This document shows positions 15,510 through 54,135 of a stretch of 64,000 nucleotides of DNA, piece after piece. This stretch comes from Bifidobacterium lemurum (GTDB taxonomy: Bacteria > Actinomycetota > Actinomycetes > Actinomycetales > Bifidobacteriaceae): positions 1,798,001-1,862,000 of the forward strand of contig NZ_CP062948.1 of the NCBI RefSeq assembly GCF_014898175.1, in the 5' to 3' direction. The translations under genes and the position numbers were made by a program. Within the stretch, counting starts at the first letter, position 1. The number at the start of each line of letters is the position of its first letter. Under the pieces are notes generated by a model. That model ran no database searches, was not told the DNA's origin, and saw nothing but the letters and a program-made list of their open reading frames with translations.

Positions 15510-15537
15510 GGTTCCTACTTTAGAAGAACAAACAACA

Positions 15538-15553
15538 ATGTTTTCGTTATCAT
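15538..15553. promoter_or_regulatory. LacI-type operator, site 1
   Basis: ATGTTTTCGTTATCAT lies 28 bases upstream of the LacI start. It differs at two positions from the reverse complement of the site at 15618, so it fits autoregulation. Confidence 0.55.
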
Positions 15554-15617
15554 TATAAACTCCTTTGAAATTGTTTCGACACGACTGTGTTGCGGATGTA
15601 GTGGCGATGGTGTTAGT

Positions 15618-15633
15618 ATGGTAACGCAAACAT
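15618..15633. promoter_or_regulatory. LacI-type operator, site 2
   Basis: ATGGTAACGCAAACAT, read on the other strand as ATGTTTGCGTTACCAT, lies about 80 bases before the first permease gene. A related 16-mer is present upstream of the binding-protein gene at 21749. Confidence 0.6.
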
Positions 15634-15710
15634 TTTAGCGATGATTGACTTCCGTGGATCGCTCCGCGCAGGCCAATCTGCGGAATACCTTCGAAGGAGA
15701 GGGGTTGAGG

Positions 15711-16637
15711 ATGGTTTCAGCTGAAGCGTCCGCGGCGGCGTCGCATTCGACGTCGGCGCGTGTGAATCGGCATAGGGCTGATTGGCGTGGTTGGAAGTTC
15801 ATGTGGCCGTTCGCGGTGGTGTTCGTGTTCGTGTTCATCGTGCCGATCGTGTACGCGGTGTACATCTCGTTCTTCCAGAAGCGCATGGTGGGCGGTACCC
15901 GGTTCGTGGGGGTCGATAATTACGTGCGTTTGTTCCAGGATCCGAATTTCTGGAGTTCGGTGGGCCGGGTGGCCCTGTTCACGGTGGTGCAGGTGCCGAT
16001 CATGCTGTTCCTGGCCGCCGCGTTGGCGTTGGCGTTGGATTCGATGAAGCTGCACGGCGCGAAGTTCTTCCGCATCTCGACCTTCCTGCCGTACGCGGTG
16101 CCGGCCGTGGTCTCGACGATGATCTGGGGGTTCATGTACGGCGCGAAGTACGGTCTGGTGGGCTCGTTGAACGATCTGCTGGGCACTGATCTGGACGTGC
16201 TGGCGCCGAGCGTGCTGTTGGCGAGCATCGGGAACATCGTGACGTGGGAGTTCACGGGCTACAACATGCTGATCTTCTACAGCTCGCTTTCCACGATCCC
16301 GCATTCCCTGTACGAGGCGGCGAGCATCGACGGCGCGTCGGAGTGGCAGATCATCCGCCGGATCAAATTGCCGGAGTTGAAGGGGTCGTTGGCGATCACG
16401 GTGATCTTCTCGATCATCGGCTCGTTCCAGCTGTTCAACGAGCCGTCGATCATGGAGAACATGGTGCCGGGCAACGCGATCACGACGTATTACACGCCGA
16501 ACATGTACGCGTACAACCTGAGCTTCAGCGGCAACCAGAGCAATTACGCGGCCGCCCTGGCGATCGTGATGGCCGTGATCACCATGGCGATCGCGTACGC
16601 GGTGCAGCTCAACAGCATGAAGGAGCAGATGAAATGA
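15711..16637 (+). CDS. Sugar ABC transporter permease, MalF-like
   Basis: Inner-membrane subunit of a carbohydrate importer. The basic N-terminus is followed by about six hydrophobic segments, and the ATPase-contacting EAA loop is visible as LYEAASIDGASEWQIIRRIKLPEL. ATG 15711 is preceded by AAGGAGAGG, which decides it over the frame opening at 15645. It pairs with the second permease at 16711. No ATPase gene is present locally, so a shared MsiK-type ATPase encoded elsewhere is probable, as is usual for this transporter class in actinobacteria. Confidence 0.93.
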   Translation: MVSAEASAAASHSTSARVNRHRADWRGWKFMWPFAVVFVFVFIVPIVYAVYISFFQKRMVGGTRFVGVDNYVRLFQDPNFWSSVGRVALFTVVQVPIMLFLAAALALALDSMKLHGAKFFRISTFLPYAVPAVVSTMIWGFMYGAKYGLVGSLNDLLGTDLDVLAPSVLLASIGNIVTWEFTGYNMLIFYSSLSTIPHSLYEAASIDGASEWQIIRRIKLPELKGSLAITVIFSIIGSFQLFNEPSIMENMVPGNAITTYYTPNMYAYNLSFSGNQSNYAAALAIVMAVITMAIAYAVQLNSMKEQMK

Positions 16638-16710
16638 GCGCGCGGGTTGAACGGGCGAGGACGATCGGGACGACGGCGCGCATGGCGCGCGGACACGAGG
16701 GAGGACTGCG

Positions 16711-17700
16711 ATGAGCACGGCGACGATGACGGCCTCGGATCTCAGGGCGCAGGAGCGGGCCGCGAAAAGGGCCGAGAGGGAGCGCCAGAGGAGGGTCGCG
16801 CGCGACGAGAAGGCCGAGCGCAAACGGGCCGCCAGGAACGGGTTCGCGAACGTGGCCAACCCCAGGAGGTCGGTGCTGCTGACGGTGGTGTGCGCGGTGT
16901 TCGCCGTGTACTGCCTGTTCCCGTTCGTGTACCTGCTGATCAACGCGACCAAGACGCAGGCGGACTTCACGTCCACGTTCGGCCTGGGCTTCGGCGACAC
17001 GTTCGCCCTGTGGGACAACATCGCCACGGTGTTCGCCTACCAGGACGGGATCTTCGCCCGCTGGCTGGTGAACACGCTCCTGTACGTGGTGGTGGGCGCG
17101 GGCGGGGCGACCCTGCTGGCGATCATGGGCGGCTACGCCCTGGCCAAGTTCCGCTTCCCGGGCCGCAGGGCCGTGTTCGCGGTCATCATCGGCTCCATCT
17201 CGGTGCCCGGCATCGCATTGGCGGTCCCGCAGTTCCTCCTGTTCGCCAAACTGGGGTTGACGAACACGCCGTGGGCGATGATCATCCCGAGCCTGATCTC
17301 GCCGTTCGGCCTGTACCTGATGTGGATCTTCTCGGAGCAGGCCGTGCCCACCGAGCTCCTGGAGGCGGCGCGCGTGGACGGGGCGGGCGAGTGGCGCACG
17401 TTCTGGCAGGTCAGCCTGCCCCTGCTCGCGCCCGGGATCGTGACGACCGCGCTGTTCACGATCGTGGCGACCTGGAACAACTACTTCCTCCCGTTGATCA
17501 TGCTCAAGGACGCCGACTGGTACCCCCTGACCATCGGCCTGAACCAATGGAAGGACCAAGCCTCGACCGCGGGCGGGCAGGCGATCCAGAACCTCGTGAT
17601 CACCGGAAGCCTGATCACCATCATCCCCCTGGTCATCGCGTTCCTCATGCTCCAGAAATACTGGCAGTCAGGACTCGCCGCAGGAGCCGTCAAAGAATAG
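16711..17700 (+). CDS. Sugar ABC transporter permease, MalG-like
   Basis: Second membrane subunit of the importer. A 45-residue, highly charged N-terminus (RAAKRAERERQRR) precedes six transmembrane segments. The EAA loop reads ELLEAARVDGAGEWRTFWQVSLP. Length and layout match MalG/AraQ-type CUT1 permeases. It lies 73 bases after the first permease and 170 bases before the GH42 gene, in one apparent operon. Confidence 0.93.
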   Translation: MSTATMTASDLRAQERAAKRAERERQRRVARDEKAERKRAARNGFANVANPRRSVLLTVVCAVFAVYCLFPFVYLLINATKTQADFTSTFGLGFGDTFALWDNIATVFAYQDGIFARWLVNTLLYVVVGAGGATLLAIMGGYALAKFRFPGRRAVFAVIIGSISVPGIALAVPQFLLFAKLGLTNTPWAMIIPSLISPFGLYLMWIFSEQAVPTELLEAARVDGAGEWRTFWQVSLPLLAPGIVTTALFTIVATWNNYFLPLIMLKDADWYPLTIGLNQWKDQASTAGGQAIQNLVITGSLITIIPLVIAFLMLQKYWQSGLAAGAVKE

Positions 17701-17755
17701 GTCCGTCCCGCGAGAGTCGCGGATGATGGGATCGAGAGAGTGGCTCACCACGTGT

Positions 17756-17844
17756 GGAGGCATCATGCAGGTATTCGCGCGGTTGCGCATCGTGCAGGTG
17801 CCTCCTTGCGTGGCCGTCTGAATCCGACGAGGCATATCAGACGG
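17756..17844 (+). promoter_or_regulatory. Structured intercistronic leader before GH42
   Basis: Two hairpins can form: GGAGGCA (17756) with TGCCTCC (17799), and CCGTCTGA (17814) with TCAGACGG (17837). They lie between the permease stop and the GH42 ribosome-binding site AAGGAGTG. Possible roles are transcript processing or 3' end protection of the permease mRNA. Confidence 0.35.
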
Positions 17845-17861
17845 AACAACCCAAGGAGTGA

Positions 17862-19946
<2,085 letters not shown>

Positions 19947-19965
19947 CGCACCGCTAACAATCACC

Positions 19966-19998
19966 AAGGGGTGATGTCCCATGCGGACATCACCCCTT
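19966..19998. terminator. Bidirectional terminator between GH42 and GH51
   Basis: AAGGGGTGATGTCC (19966-19979) pairs perfectly with GGACATCACCCCTT (19985-19998) over a 5-nt loop. It lies between two converging genes. Confidence 0.8.
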
Positions 19999-20023
19999 AT
20001 GTCATGTTCGGTGGCGGTTTCGC

Positions 20024-21610
20024 TTAGGCGGTGAATTCGATCGCGGCCCAGGAGATCGCGGGCAACGAACAGGCGATTCGGCCGTCCCCGCCGAGTGTGG
20101 CGGGCAGCGGCCGAGGCGTCACCGCGTTCGGCTCGTCCGCCGTGTTCTGGCGGTGCGGATCGTCGTCGTGCAACACGATCGCCTTCGCGATGGCGACATG
20201 CGCGTCGCTTGCGTCGGTGTCGGACGGTGCGTTCGCATTGACGCCCGGCAGCGCGGTGAGGTCGATGCGCAGGTCGTGCGCGTGTGAGACGTCGCGGTTG
20301 ACGGCCAGCAGCAGGCCGGTGCGCGACGTCTCGTCCCACGTCACCACCGCATCCACCGCGTCCACCTCGCCGTACGCCTCGGTGCGGATGACGGGCGCGT
20401 CGATCCGCGGCGCGAACACCATGCCCTTGGCGTGCCGCGCGGCCTCGGCGAAGGGGTAGAACACGGTCTGTCTCCAGGCGGGGCCGCCGTCCGGCTCGGC
20501 CATGATCGGGGCGATCACGTTGACCAGCTGCGCGCGGGAGGCGGAACGCACGCGGTCGCAATGCTTGAGCAGTGTGATCATCAGCGAGCCCTCCACCACG
20601 GCGTCGGCCGCGGAGTAGATGTCCTCCAGCAGATGCGGGGCGACGGGCCAAGGCTCGTGGTGCAGGCCCTCGCCGGCGGCGGCCTTCCATTCGTCCTCCT
20701 GCCGGTTCCACACGTCGGAATACCACACGCCCCATTCGTCGAAGCTCAACGCGATGTCGTGGTCTCCCTTGTTGGCGGCTTTGGCCTCGTCGGCGCATGC
20801 CGCCACCGTGGCGATGAATTGCTTCATATCCTCGGCCGAGGCGAGGTAGTCCTGCATGGAGCTCGCGCCGCGTTCGTAGTAGTAGGCGTGGCAGGAGACG
20901 AAATCGAGGTTGTCGTAGGCCTTGGTGAGCACGGTGCGCTCCCACTGGCCGAAGGTGGGCATATGCGCGCTCGACGAGCCGCAGGCCACCAGTTCGAGCC
21001 CGGATTCGGCGAGTTTCATCGCATGGGCCACCTTGTCGACCGCGGCGGCGTACTCGTCCGGAGTCATATGCCCGACCTGCCAGGGGCCGTCCATCTCGTT
21101 GCCGATGCACCACATCTTGACGTCCATCGGTTCGGGGATGCCGTTGGCCACACGGCGGTCGGCCAATGCGGTTCCCGGCGCTCCGTTGACGTATTCGAGT
21201 TCCTCAAGCGCCGCATGCAGGCCACGCGTGCCGAGGTTCACGGCGAGCATGATCTCGGTGCCGGCGGATTTGCTCCATTTGTGGAAGTCGTCGATGCCGA
21301 CCTGGTTGGTCTCCGTCTGGTGCCAGGCGAGGTCGCGGCGCACGGGACGCCGTTCCTTGGGGCCGGTGCCGTCCTCCCAGTTGTAGTTCGACACGAAGTT
21401 GCCGCCGGGGTAGCGCACGCAGGTGACGCCCAGCTCCCTGACCAGGTCGAGCACGTCCTGGCGGAATCCGTCGGCGTTGGCGGTGGGGTGGTCGGGCTCG
21501 TAGATGCCGCCGTACACGCAGCGGCCCACATGTTCGACGAAGGAGCCGAACATGCGTGGGGGAACGTCGGCGACCGCCGAATCGGAGCCGATGGTGATGG
21601 TGATGGTCAT
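20024..21610 (-). CDS. Alpha-L-arabinofuranosidase, GH51
   Basis: Cytoplasmic exo-enzyme that removes arabinofuranosyl units from arabino-oligosaccharides. The family pattern is complete: FGSFVEHVGRCVYGGIYEP at the start, VRYPGGNFVSNYNWEDG, acid/base Glu172 in CIGNEMDGPW and nucleophile Glu292 in LSFDEWGVWY, then a C-terminal beta-sandwich. At 528 residues it is a normal GH51. It runs against GH42 and away from the binding-protein gene. Together with GH42 it suggests that arabinogalactan fragments are the target. Confidence 0.96.
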   Translation of the reverse strand: MTITITIGSDSAVADVPPRMFGSFVEHVGRCVYGGIYEPDHPTANADGFRQDVLDLVRELGVTCVRYPGGNFVSNYNWEDGTGPKERRPVRRDLAWHQTETNQVGIDDFHKWSKSAGTEIMLAVNLGTRGLHAALEELEYVNGAPGTALADRRVANGIPEPMDVKMWCIGNEMDGPWQVGHMTPDEYAAAVDKVAHAMKLAESGLELVACGSSSAHMPTFGQWERTVLTKAYDNLDFVSCHAYYYERGASSMQDYLASAEDMKQFIATVAACADEAKAANKGDHDIALSFDEWGVWYSDVWNRQEDEWKAAAGEGLHHEPWPVAPHLLEDIYSAADAVVEGSLMITLLKHCDRVRSASRAQLVNVIAPIMAEPDGGPAWRQTVFYPFAEAARHAKGMVFAPRIDAPVIRTEAYGEVDAVDAVVTWDETSRTGLLLAVNRDVSHAHDLRIDLTALPGVNANAPSDTDASDAHVAIAKAIVLHDDDPHRQNTADEPNAVTPRPLPATLGGDGRIACSLPAISWAAIEFTA

Positions 21611-21748
21611 ATGCTTCCTTTCCGGTTGGCGCGCGTCGGTGCGTGCGGAGCCGTCTTATGCCGCGGTCGTCATTGTTATGGTTGCGTCGCCATATTAACT
21701 CATATAACTGTAGTGATGGATATGTGCATTTTTGCGCTTCCGTGTGTC

Positions 21749-21764
21749 GTGTTTGCGTAAACAT
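21749..21764. promoter_or_regulatory. LacI-type operator upstream of the binding protein
   Basis: GTGTTTGCGTAAACAT matches 13 of 16 positions of the operator at 15618 read on the other strand. It lies in the divergent region between GH51 and the binding-protein gene and could control both. Confidence 0.55.
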
Positions 21765-21860
21765 TTTTATCGTGATAGTGTCATACGCAACGAAGCAAAC
21801 TGCGAATGATCCAGATGTTGCGTCGTTGGAACCAATAATCCTGGAAGAAGGAATGGAACG

Positions 21861-23216
21861 ATGAAGTTCACTGCTCAAAAGGCGATCGCAGCCACCGGCG
21901 CAATCGCGATGATGGTTGGTATCGCGGCTTGCGGCTCGTCCAACGCCGACACCTCCGCCGACGAATCCGGTTCGGGCACGACCGAGATCACGGTGTGGGC
22001 CTGGGAGCCCACCCTGGAGCGCACCATCGAGGGCTTCGAGGCCGAGAATCCCGACATCTCGGTGACGGTGACCAACGCCGGCACCAACACGGACGAGTAC
22101 AACGCGTTGAACAACGCCATCGAAGGCGGCTCCGGCGCTCCCGACATCGCCCAGATCGAGTACTACGCGCTGCCCGAATACCAGATCCGCGGTTATGTGA
22201 TGGACCTGAGCGAATACGGCGCCGACGAGTTCTCGGACTTCTACACTCCGGGCACCTGGAGCTCCGTGAACCTCAACGGCGGCGTGTACGCCCTGCCGAT
22301 GGATTCCGGCCCGATGGCCTGGTTCTACAACAAGGACGTCTTCGACGCCGCCGGCGTCGACCCGACCCAGGTGCGCACGTGGGACGACTTCTACGAGGCC
22401 GCCAAGGCCATCCGCGCCACCGGCTCCTACATCACCTCCGACTCCGGCGACGCCGGCTTCTTCGATTCGATGTCCTGGCTCGCCGGCGCGACGCCCTTCG
22501 ACACCTCCTCCGACGGCACCGAGGTGACCATCGATCTGACGGGCGACAGCGGCGTCACGACCTTCACCGAATTCTGGCAGAAGCTCATCGATGAGGACCT
22601 CATCGACACCCAGACCGTCGGCTGGTCCGACGAATGGAACAGGGGTCTGAACGACGGCTCCATCGCCTCTCTGCTGACCGGCGCCTGGATGCCGTACAAC
22701 CTGCTCTCCGGCGCTCCCGACGGCGACGGCAAGTGGCGCATCACCCAGATGCCCACCGCCGACGGATCCGAAACCAATTCCGAGAACGGCGGCTCCTCGC
22801 TGGCTCTGATCCAGACCGACGACACCGCCAAGGCCGAGGCCGCCTACAAGTTCATGGAATACGCCTGCCACAACGCCGACGGCATCGCCACCCGCGTCGA
22901 CGGCGGCGCCTTCCCGGCCGACAACGACACCCTCGCCTCCGAGGACTTCCTCAACATGACCTCGCTGACCGACTCCGACGGCAACGCCCACGAGTACTTC
23001 GGCGGACAGAAGTTCAACGAGGAGCTCGCCAAGGCCGCGGCCAACGTGTCCACCGGCTACAAGTTCCTGCCCTTCGAGGTCTACGCCCGCGGCGTCTTCG
23101 CCGACGACGCCGGCGCCGCCTACACCGACCAGTCCATCACGCTCGCCGACGGCGTGGCGGCTTGGGAGGAGAACCTCAAGTCCTATGCCGAGCAGCAGGG
23201 CTACACCGTGAAGTAA
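21861..23216 (+). CDS. Sugar-binding lipoprotein of the ABC importer
   Basis: Captures oligosaccharide outside the cell and hands it to the permeases at 15711-17700. The first 23 residues form a lipoprotein signal with lipobox GIAAC, so the protein is anchored at Cys24. The rest is a family 1 extracellular solute-binding fold (ITVWAWEPTLERTIEGFEAENP). At 451 residues it is a standard CUT1 binding protein. An operator-like site lies 100 bases upstream. A paralogue is encoded at 25275. Confidence 0.93.
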   Translation: MKFTAQKAIAATGAIAMMVGIAACGSSNADTSADESGSGTTEITVWAWEPTLERTIEGFEAENPDISVTVTNAGTNTDEYNALNNAIEGGSGAPDIAQIEYYALPEYQIRGYVMDLSEYGADEFSDFYTPGTWSSVNLNGGVYALPMDSGPMAWFYNKDVFDAAGVDPTQVRTWDDFYEAAKAIRATGSYITSDSGDAGFFDSMSWLAGATPFDTSSDGTEVTIDLTGDSGVTTFTEFWQKLIDEDLIDTQTVGWSDEWNRGLNDGSIASLLTGAWMPYNLLSGAPDGDGKWRITQMPTADGSETNSENGGSSLALIQTDDTAKAEAAYKFMEYACHNADGIATRVDGGAFPADNDTLASEDFLNMTSLTDSDGNAHEYFGGQKFNEELAKAAANVSTGYKFLPFEVYARGVFADDAGAAYTDQSITLADGVAAWEENLKSYAEQQGYTVK

Positions 23217-23243
23217 CGGCGCTCCGCAGCTGGAACGATCGCT

Positions 23244-23283
23244 GACGCGGCCCGTCGATGGAAACCCATCGGCGGGCCGCGTC
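23244..23283 (+). terminator. Strong hairpin terminator after the binding protein
   Basis: An 18-bp stem (23244-23261 with 23266-23283, one mismatch) closes a 4-nt loop. There is no long T run. Confidence 0.65.
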
Positions 23284-23314
23284 GCTGTGCCGTCGGTCGT
23301 GGCTTGTGTGTTCC

Positions 23315-23446
23315 GAAGTCGGTGATTTCGTGTGTCGGCAGAGAGATGAAGTTCTGCATTTCGTGTGAGAAACGACTTCCGAAGTTCTGCATTTCGTGTA
23401 ACATCGGAGATGTGAAGTTCTGCATTTCGTGTTGGTGGTGAGGCTG
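23315..23446 (+). repeat. Array A: four tandem 33-bp units leading the first DUF4143 gene
   Basis: Units begin at 23315, 23348, 23381 and 23414, exactly 33 bp apart. Each has a 19-bp core, GAAGTTCTGCATTTCGTGT (perfect in units 2-4, diverged in unit 1), and a 14-bp non-conserved spacer. The last core ends 17 nt before ATG 23450, and the likely ribosome-binding site lies in the last spacer. Confidence 0.9.
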
Positions 23447-23449
23447 GAC

Positions 23450-24811
23450 ATGTTGGAACGTAAGGCGTATCAACGGTTGGTGGAGTGGAAGAACACCAGC
23501 CGCGGCAAAACCGCTCTGATGGTGGAGGGGGCACGTCGTGTGGGCAAAAGCACGTTGGTCTCCCAATTTGGCAAACAGGAATACCGTTCGTGCCTGTTCA
23601 TCGATTTTTTCCAGGCCACCGAGGAGGTGCGTCAGTATTTCCGCGACTATCGCACGGATCTGGACACGCTGTTCCTTTACCTGTCGACGTACTATGGCGT
23701 CGAATTGTATGAGCGGGACACGTTGGTGGTGTTCGACGAAGTGCAGATGTTCCCCGAAGCGCGCGGTTTGATTAAATATCTGGTTGCGGATGGCCGCTTC
23801 GACTACATCGAAACCGGTTCTCTGCTATCCATCAGGCAGAACATTCAAGATATCGTCATTCCCTCGGAAGAGGAATCCATGGACTTGAATCCGATGGATT
23901 TCGAGGAATTCCTGTGGGCGATGGGGCAACGACAGCTCGCCGACCTCATTCGTCGTCAGTTCGCGGCGTCGCGGCCACTGCCTGACGGATTGCATCGACG
24001 CGCCATGGGGCTGCTCCGAGAATACATGCTGGTCGGAGGTATGCCGGATCCGGTGAGCATCTACGTTGAACAGCGGAAATTCGCCTCTGTGGATGCCAGC
24101 AAACGGCGCATCCTCGAACTCTATCGCAATGATGTGGCAAGGTTCGCGCGTGGATACGAGTTCAAAGTCGCCTCCGTGCTTGACGGGATTCCGGGACAGC
24201 TCTCCAAGCATGAGAAACGGTTCTCGTTAAGCTCATTGGGCAAAAGCGCTCGCATGCGTGATTACGAGGAATCCTTTTTCTGGTTGGCCGATGCCCGTAT
24301 CGCCAACCTCTGTTTCGCCTGCGCTGATCCCTCCGTGGGACTGTCGCTCAGTATGGAACAGACATCGCTCAAATGCTATATGGCGGACACCGGACTGTTG
24401 GTGTCCCTGGCGTTCGCCGACAGCGCCGCAACCGACGAAAACGTGTATCGTGCCGTGCTTCGCGGTGACATCGGGCTGAATGAGGGCATGCTCACGGAGA
24501 ACATCGTGGCTCAGATGCTGCGGGCCAACGGACATAAATTGTTCTTCTATACCCAATCGGGGCAAAAGGGAAACGAGGAACGCATGGAAATCGACTTCCT
24601 AATCATCCGTCCGTATGCCGATGCCGCGATGAAGCCGCGCGTCAGTCCGGTCGAGGTCAAATCCCCGCGCCAGTATGGCACCACATCATTGGATCGGTTC
24701 GGAGCGAAATTCGGCAAACGCGTCGGTGTGCAATACGTGATTCATCCCAAACAGATGGACGTCAAAGACGGCCGCGTGTATCTGCCGCTGTACATGGCCT
24801 TCTGTTTGTGA
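23450..24811 (+). CDS. AAA+ ATPase with DUF4143 domain (first copy)
   Basis: The N-terminal half is an AAA_14-type ATPase with Walker A GARRVGKS (residues 27-34) and Walker B TLVVFDEVQM (Asp96, Glu97). The C-terminal half is the DUF4143 region and ends with MEIDFLI and PVEVKS, which resembles a PD-(D/E)XK nuclease core. Biological role of the family is not established. ATG 23450 is chosen over GTG 23429, which lies inside the repeat array. Codon use looks less GC-biased than in neighbours, suggesting transfer. A related but distinct copy is at 26962. Confidence 0.85.
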   Translation: MLERKAYQRLVEWKNTSRGKTALMVEGARRVGKSTLVSQFGKQEYRSCLFIDFFQATEEVRQYFRDYRTDLDTLFLYLSTYYGVELYERDTLVVFDEVQMFPEARGLIKYLVADGRFDYIETGSLLSIRQNIQDIVIPSEEESMDLNPMDFEEFLWAMGQRQLADLIRRQFAASRPLPDGLHRRAMGLLREYMLVGGMPDPVSIYVEQRKFASVDASKRRILELYRNDVARFARGYEFKVASVLDGIPGQLSKHEKRFSLSSLGKSARMRDYEESFFWLADARIANLCFACADPSVGLSLSMEQTSLKCYMADTGLLVSLAFADSAATDENVYRAVLRGDIGLNEGMLTENIVAQMLRANGHKLFFYTQSGQKGNEERMEIDFLIIRPYADAAMKPRVSPVEVKSPRQYGTTSLDRFGAKFGKRVGVQYVIHPKQMDVKDGRVYLPLYMAFCL

Positions 24812-24842
24812 GCTGGATTCCTTGTCATCCCGAGTGTTCTCC

Positions 24843-24920
24843 TCGTCATCCCGAGCGGAGCCGAGGGATCTCACGTGCGGTTGAGATTCCTCGACTCCGC
24901 TTTGCTCCGCTCGGAATGAC
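24843..24920. repeat. Dispersed 'GTCATCCCGAGCGGAGC' repeat, palindromic copy
   Basis: GTCATCCCGAGCGGAGC and GAGGGATCTC on the left face GAGATTCCTCGACTCC and GCTCCGCTCGGAATGAC on the right, giving a long imperfect hairpin directly after the ATPase gene. Confidence 0.7.
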
Positions 24921-25057
24921 ATGTACGGTGCTTGCTTTCGGGAATGCGTGGTTCGCGTCGTGTTGTTGTGAGAACGGCTTCGTGATGCCGGGCTGGTTGA
25001 GCGGTTCCGGGGTTCGCTATTGGAAAGCGGCCGTTATTCCCGTCGCACCTGCGCATC

Positions 25058-25189
25058 AAGGTCCGGAAAAGTGTGGAATAGGCGGTGTTCAAGGTTCATA
25101 AAAGTGTGTGATTCACCCTTATCAAGGCTCATAAAAATGTAAAAAACAGTGGTCGCAAGGCTATGAAAAGTGCGTATAAGGGTAATCGA
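25058..25189 (+). repeat. Array B: four tandem 33-bp units without an ATPase gene
   Basis: Units begin at 25058, 25091, 25124 and 25157, again exactly 33 bp apart. The 17-bp core is close to AAGGCTCATAAAAGTGT and the 16-bp spacers differ. The period matches array A, the core sequence does not. No DUF4143 gene follows; the next gene is a sugar-binding lipoprotein. Confidence 0.88.
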
Positions 25190-25274
25190 AGCTTTCGGAT
25201 GCCGCATGCGCGGATTGATGTGGAACGAATCGGAAGTCAGAGGCCGGCCCGGGCCACCGGGTAGACTCGAGGGC

Positions 25275-26699
25275 ATGCGCATTATCGGACGGAGACTCAA
25301 ACGATTGGCCACGACGCTCGCCGCCGTCACGCTCGCCGTCTGCCTTGCGGGCTGCGGGGCCGCGTCCGCGGTCGACAACCGCACCGTGATCAACGTGTGG
25401 TCATGGGAGCCGAGCATGGCGGCCGTGGTCGAACAGTTTGAGGCGGCGAATCCCGACATCCGCGTGGAGCTCACCGACATCAGCGGCTACGACAACCTCA
25501 ACACGGCCATCCAGGACGGCTACGGCACCCCCGACGTGGTGCAGCTGGAATATTTCGCCCTGCGCCAATACGCGGTGTCCGGCCAATTGCTCGACATCAC
25601 CGACCGCGTCACCTCCGGATACTCCGAATTCTTCACGCCGGGCACCTGGTCGTCCGTGCAGCTCGCCGACCGCGTGTACGGACTGCCCATGGACTCCGGC
25701 CCCATGGCGTTCTTCTACAACAAAGACGTGTTCGATCAGGCCGGCGTGGACGCCGAACAGATTAAAACCTGGGACGACTTCTACGAGGCGGCCAAAAAAC
25801 TCAAGGCGATCGGCGTGTACATCGCCGCCGACGCGGGCGACGCCAGCTTCTACGACGCGATGATCTGGCTGGCGGGCGGACAGCCCTTCCGCACCTCCAC
25901 GGACGGCAAAACCGTGACCATCGACCTGGAGAACGACCCGGGCGTGCAGGCGTTCACCGAGTTCTGGCAGAAGATGATCGACGAGGACCTGATCGACACG
26001 CGCTCGCAGATCTGGTCCGATGACTGGCAGGAAGGCATCGGCGACGGCACCATCGCCTCCGTGTTCTCCGGCGCGTGGATGCCCTCGCTGCTGCTCGCCG
26101 ACGTGCCCGGCACCGCGGGCCTATGGCGCGTGACCCAGATGCCCACGCCGGACGGCCAGCCAGCCAACGCCGAGAACGGCGGCTCCGCGCTGGCGGTGCT
26201 GCAGCTGACCCGCAAACCCGACGCGGCGTTCCGCTTCGTGGAATTCGTCACCCACAGCACCGAAGGCATCTCCACGCGCGTGGACGGCGGCGCCTTCCCC
26301 GCGGACAACGCCACCCTGAACAGCCGTGACTTTTTGAGCAGAACCACCATCCGCGACTCGCGCGGCGTCGACGTGGCCTACTTCGGCGGGCAACGGTTCA
26401 ACGAGGTGCTGGCGCAGGCGGCGGAGAACGTCTCCACCGACTACCAGTATCTGCCGTTCGAGGTGTACGCGCGCAGCGACTTCAGATCCACCGTGGGGCG
26501 GGCCTACCGCTGGTCGAGCTCCTATCACGCGTATCAGGCGCGTGAAAACGCCATCGAGCAGGGCCGGACGGACAGCCACGGCGATCCGCTGGAATCATTG
26601 GAGCACCCGGGAGAGAAGATCAGCCTCGCCGACGGCATCGCCCTCTGGCAGAAGGACCTGGAGGAATACGGATTCAACCAGGGCTTCACCATCCAATAA
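25275..26699 (+). CDS. Second sugar-binding lipoprotein, paralogue of the 21861 gene
   Basis: Family 1 solute-binding protein of 474 residues from ATG 25275. The signal ends in lipobox CLAGC. Long stretches align with the first binding protein, such as NVWSWEPSM, TPGTWSSV, YGLPMDSGPMAFFYNKDVF and STRVDGGAFPADN, so the two are duplicates. This copy has an extra segment of about 40 residues near the C-terminus (SSSYHAYQARENAIEQGRT). No permease genes accompany it; it may serve the same importer with a different ligand. The frame extends upstream to 25170, but only the 25275 start gives a lipoprotein signal. Confidence 0.9.
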   Translation: MRIIGRRLKRLATTLAAVTLAVCLAGCGAASAVDNRTVINVWSWEPSMAAVVEQFEAANPDIRVELTDISGYDNLNTAIQDGYGTPDVVQLEYFALRQYAVSGQLLDITDRVTSGYSEFFTPGTWSSVQLADRVYGLPMDSGPMAFFYNKDVFDQAGVDAEQIKTWDDFYEAAKKLKAIGVYIAADAGDASFYDAMIWLAGGQPFRTSTDGKTVTIDLENDPGVQAFTEFWQKMIDEDLIDTRSQIWSDDWQEGIGDGTIASVFSGAWMPSLLLADVPGTAGLWRVTQMPTPDGQPANAENGGSALAVLQLTRKPDAAFRFVEFVTHSTEGISTRVDGGAFPADNATLNSRDFLSRTTIRDSRGVDVAYFGGQRFNEVLAQAAENVSTDYQYLPFEVYARSDFRSTVGRAYRWSSSYHAYQARENAIEQGRTDSHGDPLESLEHPGEKISLADGIALWQKDLEEYGFNQGFTIQ

Positions 26700-26784
26700 A
26701 CGTAAGGTGATCCGTGTTGCCTGATCTGTCGATACCCACGGTACGGGCGTTCGGGAGGCGGGGCAATTCGATTGATGCGGCGAG

Positions 26785-26798
26785 CCGACTCGAGTCGG
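26785..26798. repeat. Perfect 14-bp palindrome
   Basis: CCGACTCGAGTCGG lies between the second binding-protein gene and array C. It may be a weak terminator stem or a binding site. Confidence 0.3.
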
Positions 26799-26856
26799 GG
26801 CGGTCGAACTGGCTTCACATCCCAAAAACGTTGAAATCACTAATGAATCTCAGTGC

Positions 26857-26948
26857 TATTTACAGATTATGGTGGTTTCTACTTATCAATTATGGTAATT
26901 CCTATTTATCAAATATGGTATTATCTACTTACAGATTATGGGCACAAT
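26857..26948 (+). repeat. Array C: four tandem 23-bp units leading the second DUF4143 gene
   Basis: Units begin at 26857, 26880, 26903 and 26926, exactly 23 bp apart. The 16-bp core follows TAYTTAYMRAWTATGG, with 7-bp spacers. The array is strikingly AT-rich for this genome. The last core ends 20 nt before ATG 26962, nearly the same placement as array A. Confidence 0.9.
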
Positions 26949-26961
26949 GGCTGGAGGGGCG

Positions 26962-28119
26962 ATGATACCTCGAATATTGGCAGATCGCGCGAAACAGCTT
27001 TCCGAATGGTTCCCCGTGGTTTCGGTCACAGGCCCCAGACAGAGCGGAAAAACCACGCTGGTCAGAAGCGTGTTCAAGGATTACGAATACCTCAATCTCG
27101 AGGATCCCCAGTTGCGCACCGCCGCCTTGGAAGATCCAGTGGGTTTCATCCGGAATCGTTCCGGAAAGCTCGTCCTCGATGAGGTCCAGTATGTTCCCGA
27201 TTTGTTTTCGATGATTCAAGTGGTGTCCGATGAACGTGGTGCGGTGGGGCAATATGTGCTGTCCGGCTCGCAGAATTTCCTGCTGCTCGACAGCATCACC
27301 CAATCGCTTGCCGGACGTGTGGGGCTGTTGAAGTTGCTGCCGTTGTCGTATGGGGAGACTCTGCGGGACTCGCCATCGCTTTCCTCCGACGACTTTATGC
27401 TGCGTGGCGGCTATCCGCGGTTGTACGACACGGGAATGCCATATGACGTGTTCTTCGACAATTACATCAACACCTACATCGAGCGTGATGTCGGAGAGTA
27501 TCTAGATGTGCGTAATCTTACGGCTTTTCGTCGTTTTCTTGGTTTGTGTGCGTTGAATGCCGGCAATCTTGTCAATTACTCGAAACTGGCGAATGAACTT
27601 GAGGTCGCTGCGGCGACCGTTCGTTCATGGACGTCTGTTTTGGAATCTAGCTACATCACTTTCTCTTTGATGCCGTATGCGGCCAATATCCGCAAAAGGC
27701 TGACCAAGACCCCCAAATTGTATTTCTATGACACCGGATTGCTCTGCCATCTGCTGGGATATGATGCTCTTGAGGATTTGTTGGTGTCCCCGCATCTGGG
27801 CATGGTGTTCGAGAACCTGATCATTGCCGAAACCATGAAGAGGTATCTCAACCAGGGCCGGGAACCTCGACTCATGTTCTATCGAGACGACAGCAAGGTC
27901 GAAGTGGATCTTCTCGACTATACGGATATGCGTCACCCGCGGCTGGTCGAAATCAAGTCTGGTCAGACCTATCATGACCGTTTCGCGAAAAGCGTTGGCA
28001 CTGTGGGCGCGCAACTCGGCATCCCGGAAGACGAACGGTATGTGGTGATACGTGTCGCCGACAGTTTCCAGTCGAAGGGCGTTCACGTGGTGAGCGCCGC
28101 CGATTGGCTGACAAGATAA
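26962..28119 (+). CDS. AAA+ ATPase with DUF4143 domain (second copy)
   Basis: Walker A GPRQSGKT (residues 24-31) and Walker B LVLDEVQYVPD mark the AAA_14 ATPase; the middle region YGETLRDSP, LRGGYPRLYD and YINTYIERDV is typical of DUF4143 proteins. The C-terminus carries KVEVDLL and LVEIKSG, again PD-(D/E)XK-like. It is shorter than the first copy and only distantly similar to it, so the two were probably acquired separately. ATG 26962 has GGAGG four bases upstream; the in-frame ATG 26938 lies within the last repeat. It converges on coaX. Confidence 0.87.
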   Translation: MIPRILADRAKQLSEWFPVVSVTGPRQSGKTTLVRSVFKDYEYLNLEDPQLRTAALEDPVGFIRNRSGKLVLDEVQYVPDLFSMIQVVSDERGAVGQYVLSGSQNFLLLDSITQSLAGRVGLLKLLPLSYGETLRDSPSLSSDDFMLRGGYPRLYDTGMPYDVFFDNYINTYIERDVGEYLDVRNLTAFRRFLGLCALNAGNLVNYSKLANELEVAAATVRSWTSVLESSYITFSLMPYAANIRKRLTKTPKLYFYDTGLLCHLLGYDALEDLLVSPHLGMVFENLIIAETMKRYLNQGREPRLMFYRDDSKVEVDLLDYTDMRHPRLVEIKSGQTYHDRFAKSVGTVGAQLGIPEDERYVVIRVADSFQSKGVHVVSAADWLTR

Positions 28120-28140
28120 TCGGCGGCGGTGAAGCGCAGG

Positions 28141-28905
28141 CTAGGCGTTGCGGGTGTGGATGTGCTTCATGCCTTTGAAGATCAGGTCGGGATCGTACAC
28201 GTCGATCACATCCGTATCGTCTTTGAACATGCGTCCCAAGCCGCCGGTGGCGATCACCTGGAACGGCTCGTCGATCTCCTCATGGAACTGGGCGATGATG
28301 CGTTCGATGCCGCCGAGCGTGCTGTAATACAGGCCGGCCTGCATGCAGTCGCGCGTGTTGGTGCCGAGGATGGAGGACGGGCGGGCGATCTCCACCTCGG
28401 GAAGCTGCGCGGTCTGCCCCCACAGCGCGGCGGCGGAGGACCGCACGCCTGTGGTGATGACTCCGCTGGTGATCGTGCCCTTGCCGTCCACGTAGATCAG
28501 TGTGGTCGCGGTGCCGAAATCCGCCACCAGGGCGGGGCCGCCGTAGGTGAAGTACGCGCCGGCGCATCCGGCCAGGATGTCCGCGCCCAGCGACTTGGGA
28601 TCGTCGACGCGCACGTTGATGCCGGTTTTGATGCCGGGGCCGATGATCATCGGCTCGATTTTGAGGAATTTGACGATGCTCGCGCGGAAGGAGTACATCA
28701 CCTTGGGCACCACCGAGCAGATGACCACATCGTCCACATCATTCGCGGAGTAGCCGCTCATCGCGAGGAATTCCGTAAGCATCAGGCCGTACTCGTCCGA
28801 CGTGTGGTCGGCTTTGGTGGTGATGCGGTAGGTTCCGACGATCTCATCGCCTTCCAGGAATCCGAGGACGATGTTGGTGTTGCCGATATCGACTGCGACG
28901 AGCAT
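28141..28905 (-). CDS. coaX: Type III pantothenate kinase
   Basis: Phosphorylates pantothenate in the first step of coenzyme A synthesis. The ASKHA-fold nucleotide motifs are present: AVDIGNTNIVLG at the N-terminus, GADILAG and VADFGTATTLIYVD in the middle, and VIATGGLG near the C-terminus. At 254 residues it is the normal CoaX length. The start at 28905 (MLVAVDIGNTN) begins exactly at the first beta strand. It is divergent from the peptide importer. Confidence 0.95.
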   Translation of the reverse strand: MLVAVDIGNTNIVLGFLEGDEIVGTYRITTKADHTSDEYGLMLTEFLAMSGYSANDVDDVVICSVVPKVMYSFRASIVKFLKIEPMIIGPGIKTGINVRVDDPKSLGADILAGCAGAYFTYGGPALVADFGTATTLIYVDGKGTITSGVITTGVRSSAAALWGQTAQLPEVEIARPSSILGTNTRDCMQAGLYYSTLGGIERIIAQFHEEIDEPFQVIATGGLGRMFKDDTDVIDVYDPDLIFKGMKHIHTRNA

Positions 28906-29087
28906 GATTGCCTCCCTTGCTGATGCGATTATACGGGATGGGGTCGCACGGAGCGTTGCGAGACTCGCGGTCGTGCGAACATTCCGAACATGTCGCGAAC
29001 AATCGCACATCGCCCGATTTGGCGAAATCGCAACGATTTCATCGAAAACGTGTTCGTTTGGACCCCGCGGGAGAATCGCACGAACGG

Positions 29088-29122
29088 AAACGGGAACGAC
29101 GTTCGTGCGCTGCGCTATACTC
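29088..29122 (+). promoter_or_regulatory. Inverted repeat and -10 element upstream of the peptide importer
   Basis: CGCACGAAC (29088-29096) and GTTCGTGCG (29102-29110) form a 9-bp inverted repeat with a 5-nt gap, seven bases before a TATACT hexamer at 29117. The position suits a repressor site. The -35 region is weak. The rest of the 290-bp divergent region shows several loose CGAAC/GTTCG half-sites. Confidence 0.45.
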
Positions 29123-29195
29123 ATCCTTTGGTGGACGACCCTATTCGGGCGGACAACCAATCGAAAAACCAACGATAATTGCATAAGGAAGATCC

Positions 29196-30860
29196 ATGTC
29201 TCACGATCATGGTGTGTACGGCGACGCCGACGCAACCGAAGAGCAGAAGACAAACCCCGCCACCGGCGCGAACGCCGTGGCCAGCACCGACGCGACCCTG
29301 GAGGGGCGCGCGAAATCATCGAACCAGCATCACGGGCCCAAGGCGTGGGTATGGGTGCTGATCGCCGTCGTCGCCGTCGTGGCGATCGTCATCGGCGCAA
29401 CCATATTCGGCAGGAAATCCGACGATGCCGCGTCCGGCTCCGGGCAGACCGCGAGCACCGTGACCATCGGACTGAAACTCGCCCCCACCAATCTCGACAT
29501 CCGCAACCAGTCCGGCTCCGCGCTCGACCAGCTGCTCATCGGCAATGTGTACGAGGGGCTGGTGGGACGCGACTCGGACAACCAGGTCGTGCCCGCCATC
29601 GCGAAAAGCTGGACGGTCTCCGACGACGGCCTGACCTACACCTTCGCCCTGAACGAGAACATGAGCTTCTCCAACGGCGACGCGCTCACCGCCGAGGACG
29701 TGGCCTGGTCGATCAACGAGCTCATCGACCAGCAGTACCATGACGCCGACTCGCTCGAAGGCGTGACCTCCGTGACCGACGACGGCGAGAACACCGTGGT
29801 CATCACGCTGGAGGCGCCGAATTCGAACCTGCTGTGGACCCTCACCGGGCGTCCCGGCCTTGTGTTCGACAAGGACGCCGACTACGACGCCAAAACCGAG
29901 GCCGTCGGCTCCGGCCCGTACACGGTGTCGAAATTCGTGGAGAACGATTCCGTCACGCTGACGGCCAACGAGAACTACTGGGGGGAGCACGCGGCCAAAA
30001 CCCCGACCGTGGTCGTCAAATACTTCGCCGACGACAACGCCGCGGTGAACGCGCTCAAATCCGGCGATGTGCAGGTGCTCGCGCCGATCGTCGAGAACCT
30101 GGCCGAGCCTTTCGCCTCCGATTCCGAGCACTACACCGTGCAGACGGGCGACGGCACCGACAAATACGTGCTCGCCTTCAACTCGAAAGGCGAGAAGACC
30201 TCCGACCTGCGCGTGCGCCAGGCCATCCGCTACGCCATCGACCATGACGAGCTGATCGCCTCGCGCGGCGGGGCCGACAAGGCGCTCGGCGGGCCGATCC
30301 CCTCCCTCGACCCCGGCTACGAGGACTTGACCGACCTATATCCGCACGATGTGGACAAAGCCAAGGAACTGCTCGCCGAGGCCGGATACTCCACCGAGCA
30401 TCCGCTGGAGCTCACCCTCACCTATGACGCGAGCACCTACGGCACCGAACTGGGCGACCAGCTGCGCTCGCAGCTCAAGCAGGTCGGCATCGAACTGACG
30501 GTGAACGTGGTGGAGTTCTCCACCTGGCTGCAGGATGTGTACACCAACCACGACTACGACCTGTCCCTGGTGAACCACAACGACAGCCACGACCTCTACC
30601 AGTGGGCCGACCCGGACTACTACTACGGCTACGACAACGCCGAAGTGCAGCGGCTGTACGCCGAAGGCGTGGCCGCCACCTCCGACGAGGAGAGCGACGC
30701 CAAATTCGCCGAGGCCGCTCGCATCGTCTCCGAGGACGCGCCCGCCGACTGGCTGTTCAACTTCCGCGTCACCACCGCCATGGCCAACGGCGTGGAGGGA
30801 TTCCCGTTCAACATGAACCAGACCCTGCTGCCCCTGTACGACGTGACCTACACCGCGTGA
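29196..30860 (+). CDS. Peptide ABC transporter substrate-binding protein, membrane-anchored
   Basis: Family 5 solute-binding protein (DppA/OppA type) that feeds the permeases encoded downstream. The fold is recognisable from TNLDIRNQSGSALDQLLIGNVYEGL, SFSNGDALTAEDVAWSI and VRQAIRYAIDHDEL. It lacks a lipobox. A hydrophilic 48-residue N-terminus precedes one transmembrane helix (WVWVLIAVVAVVAIVIGATIF), so it looks anchored by an uncleaved helix. At 554 residues it is otherwise normal. AAGGA precedes ATG 29196. Peptide is the family's usual ligand, but other substrates such as oligosaccharides are possible. Confidence 0.9.
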   Translation: MSHDHGVYGDADATEEQKTNPATGANAVASTDATLEGRAKSSNQHHGPKAWVWVLIAVVAVVAIVIGATIFGRKSDDAASGSGQTASTVTIGLKLAPTNLDIRNQSGSALDQLLIGNVYEGLVGRDSDNQVVPAIAKSWTVSDDGLTYTFALNENMSFSNGDALTAEDVAWSINELIDQQYHDADSLEGVTSVTDDGENTVVITLEAPNSNLLWTLTGRPGLVFDKDADYDAKTEAVGSGPYTVSKFVENDSVTLTANENYWGEHAAKTPTVVVKYFADDNAAVNALKSGDVQVLAPIVENLAEPFASDSEHYTVQTGDGTDKYVLAFNSKGEKTSDLRVRQAIRYAIDHDELIASRGGADKALGGPIPSLDPGYEDLTDLYPHDVDKAKELLAEAGYSTEHPLELTLTYDASTYGTELGDQLRSQLKQVGIELTVNVVEFSTWLQDVYTNHDYDLSLVNHNDSHDLYQWADPDYYYGYDNAEVQRLYAEGVAATSDEESDAKFAEAARIVSEDAPADWLFNFRVTTAMANGVEGFPFNMNQTLLPLYDVTYTA

Positions 30861-30869
30861 CCAGTGGCA

Positions 30870-30908
30870 GGGGATGCTTCGACTGCGCTACGCTCCGCTC
30901 AGCATGAC
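30870..30908. repeat. Partial copy of the dispersed GAGCGGAGC repeat
   Basis: GGATGCTTCGACTGCGC followed by CTCCGCTCAGCATGAC corresponds to half of the element at 24843. It lies between the binding-protein and permease genes. Confidence 0.5.
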
Positions 30909-30999
30909 GGAGTGGGGACGGTCCGTCCAACGGACGAGGGCGGGGCGATGGGTCCGCCCGATAGACAAGAGAGTGGCAATCACGTAAGGAGATGCCGAT

Positions 31000-31974
31000 A
31001 TGAGGTTCGTTCTTCGCCGTCTGCTGCTGTTCGCGGCGGCGTTGTTCGGCATCTCCGTGCTGGTGTTCGCCGCGCTGCGCGTCCTGCCGGGCGACGTCGC
31101 CTCCGTTATGGCGGGGGTCAACTCCTCTCCCGAACGGGTGGAGGCGCTGCGTGAACAGCTCGGTCTGAACAAACCGTTGGCCGTCCAGTACGTCGACTGG
31201 GCGGGTGCGCTGCTGCACGGCGACTTCGGCACGTCGATCCTGACCGGCCGCTCGATCACCACGCTGGTCGGCACGCGCGCCTCGATCACCTTTCCGCTGA
31301 TCATCCTCGGACTGCTGGTGGCGTTGGCCATCGGACTGCCGCTCGGATGCGCGGCCGTGCTGGCGCGCTCGCCCCGCACACGCTCTGCGTTGCGCGTCGT
31401 GGCCGTCATCGGCGGTGCGATTCCGGCCCTGTGGGGCGGACTCCTGCTCATCCTGCTGTTCTCGCGCGGCTCCGGACTGTTGGGGATCTTCCCCTCGCAA
31501 GGCTTCCCCCAGGAGGGGTGGGGCTCCCCCGGAGAGGCGATCTGGTCGCTGATCCTGCCGGCCCTGTCGGTGGGCGTCATCGTGGGGGCGAGCATCATGC
31601 GCTACACGCGTTCCACATTGGAATCGTTGGCCTCGTCCGGCTACGTCGATATGGCCCGCGCCTGCGGCATGACCCGCACCCAGGCGGTGCTGCGCGTCGG
31701 GCTGCGGCTCGCGACCCCGCAGCTCGTGTCGGTGGTCGGACTGACGTTCGCCTCCATGGTCACCGGCGTGATGGTGATCGAAAACCTGTTCGCGCTGCCC
31801 GGCATCGGCAGCGGACTGGTCACCGACGTGGGCAACCGCGACCTCATCGCCGTGCAAAGCGAGCTGTTCCTGCTCGCCGCGTTCTTCCTGGGGGTCGGCC
31901 TGATCGTTGACCTGCTGCACCGTCTGCTCGACCCCCGTCTCAAATCCGCCGACGCCTCGGAGGTGAACCGATGA
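31000..31974 (+). CDS. Peptide ABC transporter permease, DppB-like
   Basis: First membrane subunit of the importer, 324 residues. The N-terminus MRFVLRRLLLFAAALFGISVLVFAALRVLPGD is typical of DppB/OppB, and the EAA-like loop reads YVDMARACGMTRTQAVLRVGLR, followed by VENLFALPGIGSGLV-type sequence. AAGGAG lies before ATG 31000. Its stop overlaps the next start (ATGA at 31971). Confidence 0.93.
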   Translation: MRFVLRRLLLFAAALFGISVLVFAALRVLPGDVASVMAGVNSSPERVEALREQLGLNKPLAVQYVDWAGALLHGDFGTSILTGRSITTLVGTRASITFPLIILGLLVALAIGLPLGCAAVLARSPRTRSALRVVAVIGGAIPALWGGLLLILLFSRGSGLLGIFPSQGFPQEGWGSPGEAIWSLILPALSVGVIVGASIMRYTRSTLESLASSGYVDMARACGMTRTQAVLRVGLRLATPQLVSVVGLTFASMVTGVMVIENLFALPGIGSGLVTDVGNRDLIAVQSELFLLAAFFLGVGLIVDLLHRLLDPRLKSADASEVNR

Positions 31975-32966
31975 GCCGCAGCCCCCTATCATCCTCGAGA
32001 CGGCATCCGTCGCCCTCGTCGCCCCGAACGGAGCGTTCGTCCCCGTCGTCCCCAAAGGGGAGCCCCGCCCTGACGTCCCAGACGCGGGACGGAATCGGGA
32101 GGATGATCGTCTCCCTTCTGCGTGCCGTCTGGCGCAAACCCGAAGGCCGGTTCTCGCTGGTCGTCCTCGCGCTGTGGATTCTCATCGCCCTCATCTCCCT
32201 GTTCTGGACCCCGCGATCCCTATGGGCGACCGACGGCTACAACGTGTGGGACAAACCCTCCGCCTCGCACTGGCTCGGCACCGACGGCACCGGCGCGGAC
32301 GTGTTCAGCTGGCTGATGGCGGGCTCACGCACGAATCTGCTCATCGTCATCCTCACCGTCGCTTTCTCGGGCGCGTTCGGTCTGCTGTTGGTCACGCTGA
32401 TGGTGTCGCGCAATTCCGCGCTCGCCAACACCTCCGTGGTGGTGGTCGACGCGCTCATCTCCATTCCCACCGTGCTGATCGCGTTGATTCTGGCCGTGCC
32501 GCTGGGCGCGTCCATTATGGTGATCGTGGTGGCCTGCGGATTCGGATATGGCTTGAACCTCGCGCGCGTGGCGCGGCCCGCGGCGCTGCTGGCCGCGCGG
32601 TCGAGCTATGTGGAGTCCGCGATGGCCAACGGCGCCTGCGGCATACGCGTGCTCGCGACCCATATCGTTCCCAATATCCTCCCCGTGCTGCTGGTGCAGT
32701 TGTCGCTGTCCGCGGGCACGGCGGTGCTGGCCGAAAGCGGACTGACCTACCTCGGCATAGGCGTGCCCTCGGGCGTGCCGAGCTGGGGTCATTCGCTGGC
32801 CACGTCGGTCAAATTCATCAATGTGTATCCGCTGACCGTATTGTGGCCGGGCCTGATCGTCACGGTGGTGGTCATCGCCCTGAACGTGTTCGGCGACGCG
32901 CTGCGCGACGCGTTGGAGGAGCGGTATGTCACGGCCGCGCAGGAGGAGGCGGAATATGGGCGTTGA
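31971..32966 (+). CDS. Peptide ABC transporter permease, DppC-like
   Basis: Second membrane subunit. The core begins near residue 50 (WRKPEGRFSLVVLALWILIALISLF) and shows the DppC pattern HWLGTDGTGADVFSWLMAGSRTNL, and the EAA loop SYVESAMANGACGIRVLATHIVPN. The first 44 residues are Ser/Pro/Arg-rich and unlike other DppC proteins. An internal ATG at 32103 could be the true start, but its purine box has no spacing, so the coupled ATG 31971 is kept. It overlaps the next gene by 11 bases. Confidence 0.9.
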   Translation: MSRSPLSSSRRHPSPSSPRTERSSPSSPKGSPALTSQTRDGIGRMIVSLLRAVWRKPEGRFSLVVLALWILIALISLFWTPRSLWATDGYNVWDKPSASHWLGTDGTGADVFSWLMAGSRTNLLIVILTVAFSGAFGLLLVTLMVSRNSALANTSVVVVDALISIPTVLIALILAVPLGASIMVIVVACGFGYGLNLARVARPAALLAARSSYVESAMANGACGIRVLATHIVPNILPVLLVQLSLSAGTAVLAESGLTYLGIGVPSGVPSWGHSLATSVKFINVYPLTVLWPGLIVTVVVIALNVFGDALRDALEERYVTAAQEEAEYGR

Positions 32967-54107: not shown

Positions 54108-54126
54108 GGAAGCCCAGTGGGCTTCC
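54108..54126. repeat. Perfect short hairpin before the 72-bp repeats
   Basis: GGAAGCCCA and TGGGCTTCC are perfect 9-bp arms around one base. GCTTCC recurs within the tandem repeat that follows. Confidence 0.45.
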
Positions 54127-54135
54127 GTGCCGGCG

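Follow-up and report, generated by a model that had tools for sequence, protein, structure and literature searches.

DNA repeats that are bound by a protein at regular spacing are known from several systems. MalT-type STAND activators act on repeated boxes: MalT, a STAND ATPase, forms oligomers on spaced repeats in promoter DNA, binds via a C-terminal LuxR-type domain and activates a regulon. DUF4143 proteins resemble it as STAND-type ATPases associated with spaced repeats but, unlike MalT, have their own array before their own gene and a nuclease-like C-terminus. Plasmid iterons are direct repeats of about two helical turns, and autoregulation through Rep and iterons is known. The likeness to Orc1/Cdc6 lies in the winged-helix AAA+ fold; in contrast to iteron and origin systems, the window protein has no Rep domain, and the DUF4143 genes number up to 19 per genome and carry private cores at their start codons. 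Two archaeal ATPases, SSO1545 (2fna) and PABY2304 (2qen), are also close known systems, although the window proteins have no PDB relative by sequence; the entries listed state no function for either.

In the defence literature, DUF4143 genes of this type appear as the single-gene system PDC-S01, an ATPase fused to a PD-(D/E)XK member that ranks as the fourth most common defence across prokaryotes, with 29,494 bacterial and 9,986 archaeal counts; validation is pending for most such candidates (PMC12988326). PDC-S01 is also the most frequent individual locus in rumen genomes (PMC13356809). The accessible portions of these two accounts make no mention of repeats or regulation. RptR is comparable in that it exerts transcriptional control of defence genes; however, in the accessible part of its description, it is a separate repressor of a phage-defence island and not the effector itself (PMC12255303). 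The Thermus DUF4143 gene TT_P0211 is reported, in the part of the study at hand, to be up 6.6-fold with plasmid in an Argonaute-bearing strain, an induction that cannot be tied to an array (PMC4406477). Judged by titles and the beginnings of abstracts, the open-licence papers listed for this family contain no description of repeats upstream of DUF4143, COG1373, AAA_14 or PDC-S01 genes and no report of what PDC-S01 proteins bind. Phased operators are already known; as far as this literature search goes, family-wide, private, self-matched arrays with a spacing set by the subfamily are undescribed. The repeats of Bifidobacterium lemurum considered here, found in a stretch of 64,000 nucleotides (the window, to which all coordinates refer), are one case of a wider rule across DUF4143 genes.

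The window array and the two DUF4143 genes

The array of the window consists of four 19-bp cores on the forward strand. Read directly, copies 2, 3 and 4 (23348..23366, 23381..23399 and 23414..23432) have the identical sequence GAAGTTCTGCATTTCGTGT; copy 1 (23315..23333) is degenerate, GAAGTCGGTGATTTCGTGT, with 15/19 matches. The start-to-start steps are 33, 33 and 33 bp, and the three 14-bp spacers are mutually unrelated by eye. The first-pass annotation described four perfectly phased 33-bp repeats; the exact phasing stands, but the set turned out to be three identical copies and one with 4 mismatches. It rightly put the last core 17 nt before the start codon of a DUF4143 ATPase gene: the core ends at 23432, the ATG lies at 23450, and the 453-aa product of this gene (gene 1; 23450..24811, forward strand) has Pfam matches to AAA_14 and DUF4143. 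Gene 1 is a PADLOC PDC-S01 candidate of the three-turn subfamily, with a spacing of 32–34 bp. The array exceeds what chance would give: its tandem score is 29.5, and of 274 other genes in this genome only 4 score at least 25. When up to 3 mismatches are allowed, the 19-mer has three sites in the 2.97-Mb genome, all at the window array, against 0 for the backward control.

Two earlier proposals about the array need correction. Binding of all copies on one DNA face was suggested; with 10.5 bp to a turn, 33 bp makes 3.14 turns, and each copy is rotated by about 50 degrees against the one before, so that the copies are not strictly on one face. Overlap of the array with the promoter is inferred from position, as the promoter scan around the array gave no sigma-70-like promoter in 23200–23520; nor did it give a promoter-like site before the second DUF4143 gene of the window. 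Promoter scans proved uninformative both here and over the wider set of arrays.

That second AAA_14/DUF4143 gene (gene 2; 26938..28119, forward strand) sits 2.1 kb past gene 1 and belongs to the two-turn (22–23 bp) PDC-S01 subfamily. Its own operator-like array (26866..26941, forward strand) has a different core and a period of 23 bp, with about 3.3 copies of ATTATGGTAATTTCTACTTATCA. The likely start of gene 2, judged from an alignment, is the ATG at 26962 (MIPR, as in several relatives), which would place the array end 20 nt upstream.

Both proteins are above the curated Pfam cut-offs. Gene 1 matches AAA_14 (PF13173; E 9e-21, 74.6 bits) and DUF4143 (PF13635; E 3e-19, 70 bits), and gene 2 matches the same models with 93.7 and 147.9 bits. 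The PADLOC models of PDC-S01 are matched by gene 1 with E 5e-103 and by gene 2 with E 8e-94, the antiphage role having candidate status only. None of the Pfam, PADLOC and NCBIfam entries matched by the window proteins states a function, and the proteins have no PDB relative by sequence. Structure models reach a pLDDT of 88.7 (gene 1) and 93.3 (gene 2). The P-loop, Walker B and STAND-like fold that characterise STAND/AAA+ NTPases with a winged helix are all present, and the models indicate that the window proteins are STAND-type ATPases with a winged helix and a STAND/Orc-like fold. Among their fold matches are the oligomer-forming CED-4, NLR resistosomes and Avs5, as well as Orc1/Cdc6 and the maltose-system chain 8bob.

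The PD-(D/E)XK motif runs E ... (E)xD ... ExK. A C-terminal motif of this kind is conserved in the DUF4143 proteins: E350 and E402 are invariant, and E380, D382 and K404 present in at least 90%, in one alignment of 49 sequences; E322, D324, E338 and K340 are invariant in another of 42. These residues suggest a putative nuclease activity. VIA fold matches barely extend beyond residue 347 in one search and 289 in another, and no PDB fold for the C-terminal domain, which was queried within the whole protein, occurs among the matches listed.

The genome itself, a single contig, has 19 DUF4143 matches, including one truncated gene (L017), which is an extreme paralogue expansion; copy numbers among 26 genomes of the genus range from 0 to 19. 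A tandem score of at least 15 is reached by 13 of the remaining 18 genes, and the core is different in each. Weaker arrays precede L013 (score 10.5) and L015 (13.5), L003 has an inverted repeat, and nothing clear was seen upstream of L011 and L016.

Some other repeats were noted. Intergenic repeats of the CATCCCGAGC and GCTCGGAATGACA types lie at 24822–24961 and 11338–11415; for the repeat beside gene 1 (24830–24961), the counterpart in another genome (G049) lies across the DUF4143 gene, on its opposite side. A 72-bp tandem repeat with 2.8 copies and 82% matches occupies 54120–54319. Elsewhere in the genome, at about 16705 of locus L094 (minus strand), GTGTACACG-type units recur every 33 bp upstream of what is, by eye, a DnaK-like frame. 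As to known repeat classes, a CRISPR array would show long repeats and spacers of at least about 30 bp, which the 19-bp core with 14-bp spacers does not match; a plasmid iteron system does not fit the window protein, in which only AAA_14 and DUF4143 were found and no Rep initiator.

Prevalence and spacing of the arrays

Tandem repeats were scored at periods of 18–45 in the 330 nt before the P-loop codon in five sets of loci, A–E. The initial 254 loci were reduced to 231 by removing 6 without a P-loop frame (L017, L031, L238, L239, L242 and L275) and 17 duplicates (1 in set B, 3 in set C and 13 in set E). The sample covers bacterial members with one genome per species, and gene starts are predicted by rule. 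Bifidobacterium sets contribute 114 of the 231 genes and other taxa most of the rest, about half of the sample thus being one genus; 40 extra Bifidobacterium genes were taken down a score-ordered match table, with short open frames left out.

A score of at least 12 was found for 78/85 Bifidobacterium family members (set A), 27/29 orthologues of the window protein (set B), 8/24 genes in a sample of the window's phylum (set D) and 7/16 further members from 13 genomes (set E). Set C gave 50/77 after deduplication, a prevalence that is not that of a random sample because the set comprises the best 80 relatives of gene 2 across phyla by similarity. The search for tandem repeats upstream of bifidobacterial DUF4143 genes, proposed with the first description of the locus, therefore found them in most cases. 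Absence of repeats from orthologues had been named as one outcome that would speak against it; 26 of the 29 have a period of 33 or 34 bp, and the 27th array (L129) was scored on a different repeat with period 20. At a score of at least 15, arrays precede 145/231 DUF4143 genes vs. 9/205 neighbouring genes in set C loci (Fisher p 4e-42), and a second control, 20 stretches of the B. lemurum genome, gave 17/266 genes.

The periods are quantised. Among arrays with a score of at least 12, 161/170 have a period of 22, 23, 32, 33 or 34 bp vs. 11/46 control arrays, and the same five periods are still enriched below the threshold (21/61 vs. 72/425). Bifidobacterium has 78 arrays with a score of at least 12, and in 57 of them no more than 60 nt separate the array end from the predicted start. 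Arrays were found in Bifidobacteria, Coriobacteriia, Corynebacterium, Actinotignum, Trueperella, Bacteroidota, Patescibacteria and a spirochaete, joined on plasmids by Bacillota, Chlamydiota and Rhizobiales; the longest arrays have up to 6.8 copies (L073). The array rule crosses phyla, yet direct arrays are far from universal and are rarer outside Bifidobacterium.

The spacing follows the protein. For this comparison, a FastTree phylogeny of 228 proteins (3/231, under 250 aa, were left out) was labelled as two-turn (22–24 and 44 bp; 92 proteins) or three-turn (32–34 bp; 70 proteins). The spacing class changes only twice among the 162 labelled proteins vs. 45–59 times in 200 label shuffles, so the spacing is tied to the downstream protein. 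All 92 two-turn proteins fall into one clade of 138, together with a single three-turn exception (L240), and the remaining 69 three-turn proteins are all outside it. Even weak arrays peak at 23 inside this clade (7/41) and at 33 outside it (5/19). A fresh test used 9 of 59 plasmid records with three-turn relatives, hand-picked for spread over phyla: 6/9 have a 32/33-bp array at a score of at least 12 (Segatella copri, S. hominis, Agathobacter, Collinsella, Prevotella and Criblamydia) and 0/9 have a 22/23-bp array, the other three being one 42-bp repeat and two without an array at that score. Relatives of gene 2 occur on 391 plasmid records; among 12 loci hand-picked for taxon spread and read, 3 have direct 22/23-bp arrays and several others inverted repeats. 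As 22, 23 and 33 bp correspond to 2.10, 2.19 and 3.14 turns, protomers bound to such arrays would follow a shallow helical path around the DNA, unless the DNA were underwound.

Genes without a direct array often have an inverted repeat. In the same place, an inverted repeat exceeds all 20 shuffles in 30/60 array-less genes (for example L208 and L217) vs. 28/209 neighbouring genes. Some of these repeats use, by eye, the half-site of Bacteroidota direct arrays, of the TTTTATGCAAAT type, and some run into the start codon. In the sister family DUF234 (PF03008), only 2/20 loci have a tandem score of at least 12, and the rule thus looks specific to DUF4143; PF09820 is absent from the 16 genomes tested. 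No array (0/4) was found at virus-borne DUF4143 relatives, viral contigs gave no match to patterns from the window protein, and they contain one occurrence of the 18-mer core and none of the CCAAATGAGGAA core pair described below. Separately, four viral contigs (L322–L325) carry a perfect 23-bp duplication, ATTATCATGTAATTTCAAAGTAA, that resembles Bacteroidota DUF4143 arrays; no DUF4143-like frame was seen just downstream of it.

A candidate self-recognised operator and its alternatives

These data suggest that each DUF4143 protein reads, and probably controls, its own gene. In the reading that we consider probable from the sequences, an array-bearing DUF4143 (PDC-S01) gene carries its own self-recognised, autoregulatory operator. 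The operator would comprise several copies of a private core of about 12–19 bp, about two (22–23 bp) or three (32–34 bp) turns apart, a short way before the start codon. Through its winged helix, the STAND-type ATPase encoded by the gene would read the core, neighbouring protomers would assemble along the array with a geometry fixed by the subfamily, and the assembled protomers may silence their own promoter and leader. Such self-silencing would keep the amount of a potentially harmful ATPase-nuclease low, until the oligomer is changed by a trigger, perhaps nucleotide exchange or an invader. The protein is a probable repressor because most Bifidobacterium arrays end close to the start, in the region expected to contain the promoter and leader. 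By eye, the array copies of Ruminococcus albus are interleaved with a promoter-like TTGACT-N17-TATACT sequence, and promoter-like sites overlap arrays in 36/45 cases (from 63 arrays), a figure with no shuffled control behind it. Of the three options first raised for the window array, autoregulation by the encoded AAA+ protein is the best supported: the arrays are private, their spacing tracks the subfamily and they stay with orthologues.

That the cores are private is seen within the genome and beyond it. The 13 co-resident cores are barely more alike than shuffled ones, with a mean best 11-nt match of about 6.6 vs. 6.4 over 78 pairs. Phased pairs of two different cores were then sought at the DNA level alone in 112 genomes of the genus, and 13 of the 15 places found are at a DUF4143 gene or remnant, contrary to the possibility, raised earlier, of a core common elsewhere. 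The window core pair has 5 sites, in front of 3 intact DUF4143 genes and 2 broken remnants; of these remnants one keeps the C-terminal tail only (L355, genome G073) and the other the N-terminal piece only (L356, G074). Of the 10 sites of the CCAAATGAGGAA core pair, 8 precede intact DUF4143 genes, whereas 2 are orphans (L332 in G023 and L337 in G067) with no DUF4143 gene detected downstream. Seven of the 15 places were already in the sample; the 8 new ones are 4 intact genes, 2 remnants and 2 orphans. The orphan array L337 precedes another frame, which has a P-loop-like stretch.

Orthologues at 54–98% identity have mostly kept 2–4 copies, with the core drifting largely in step to forms such as AAGTTCTGCATTTCGTGT, TACTCTTGATTTCGTGTAT, TACCCTTGATTTGGTGTAT and AAACCTTAGAAACGTGCAAT; TTTGGTG replaces TTTCGTG in 3/3 copies of L115 and 3/4 of L117, for example. 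Such drift in step across copies argues for a shared reader. In both subfamilies, an HTH window ranks in the top two for predicting core similarity, although weakly (partial r 0.17 and 0.19), and in the three-turn set a window in the C-terminal nuclease region is as good a predictor of the core as the winged helix.

The alternative that survives best keeps the encoded protein as the reader and makes the array an assembly platform, a sensor, a self-target or an activator site, with repression not its main role. The fold matches to the oligomer-forming CED-4, NLR resistosomes and Avs5 and to Orc1/Cdc6, the arrays of up to 6.8 copies and the conserved nuclease-like motif are in its favour. We nevertheless regard it as unlikely, as the arrays lie where operators typically do, directly in front of the start codon, and an inverted pair replaces the array in many relatives.

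Binding of the array by a separate dedicated or global regulator, another of the options first raised, appears very improbable. Many regulators do commonly have phased direct repeats upstream of their target genes, and a 33-bp repeat also precedes the DnaK-like gene mentioned above, but about 13 regulators would be required to serve the 13 differing cores of this one genome. Moreover, the spacing follows the subfamily of the downstream protein itself, and the rule crosses phyla and is missing from the DUF234 sister family.

The array had also been taken as a possible recognition site for mobility, and part of that idea holds, since gene and array travel together. The distribution is patchy, relatives of gene 2 are on 391 plasmid records, and an 80% identical orthologue (L220, 18 kb around) has only the gene and array region in common with window positions 15001–33000; a 98% orthologue (L218) is syntenic with the window region. 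That the array itself serves as a site for recombination or mobility of a gene cassette is, however, extremely unlikely: it bears no mark of a recombination site, lies on one side of the gene, close to the start codon and not at the edge of a cassette, and can, in its inverted-repeat versions, run into that codon, and an unsystematic look noticed no recombinase partner in the window.

Cores and spacers were compared in 141 arrays. The best 12 positions match between copies at 0.79–1.0, a figure inflated by picking them, and the others mostly less, the weakest at 0.06–0.41; the spacers are less alike than the cores but on average still more alike than by chance, which leaves room for a contribution from duplication. 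Slippage, in the sense of neutral tandem duplication, or an RNA leader as the whole explanation is scarcely credible, for although some arrays are nearly perfect (L157 of Actinotignum) and spacer similarity exceeds chance on average, the cores match better than the spacers (the three of the window being unrelated by eye), the periods are quantised and 23100–27100 has no Rfam match. Arrays have no coding role either, since 22, 23, 32 and 34 are not multiples of 3.

Significance for the DUF4143 family

A wider model may be put forward tentatively, at lower confidence than the self-recognised operator itself. PDC-S01 proteins could be self-programmed, sequence-specific STAND nucleases, each with a DNA word of its own that the array in front of its gene would spell out; the array would be both operator and assembly platform. 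A phased, parked oligomer might then be released or activated by an invader or by a second copy of the word, and the spacing would reflect the protomer geometry of the two subfamilies.

DUF4143 is a very common bacterial family of unknown function that is listed as a candidate antiphage defence. The arrays give a predicted DNA ligand and a predicted protomer spacing for each array-bearing gene, so that DNA binding, autoregulation and induction can all be tested straight away. The difference of one DNA turn between two large subfamilies poses a ready structural question, and the many private protein–motif pairs per genome offer a natural set for learning winged-helix specificity.
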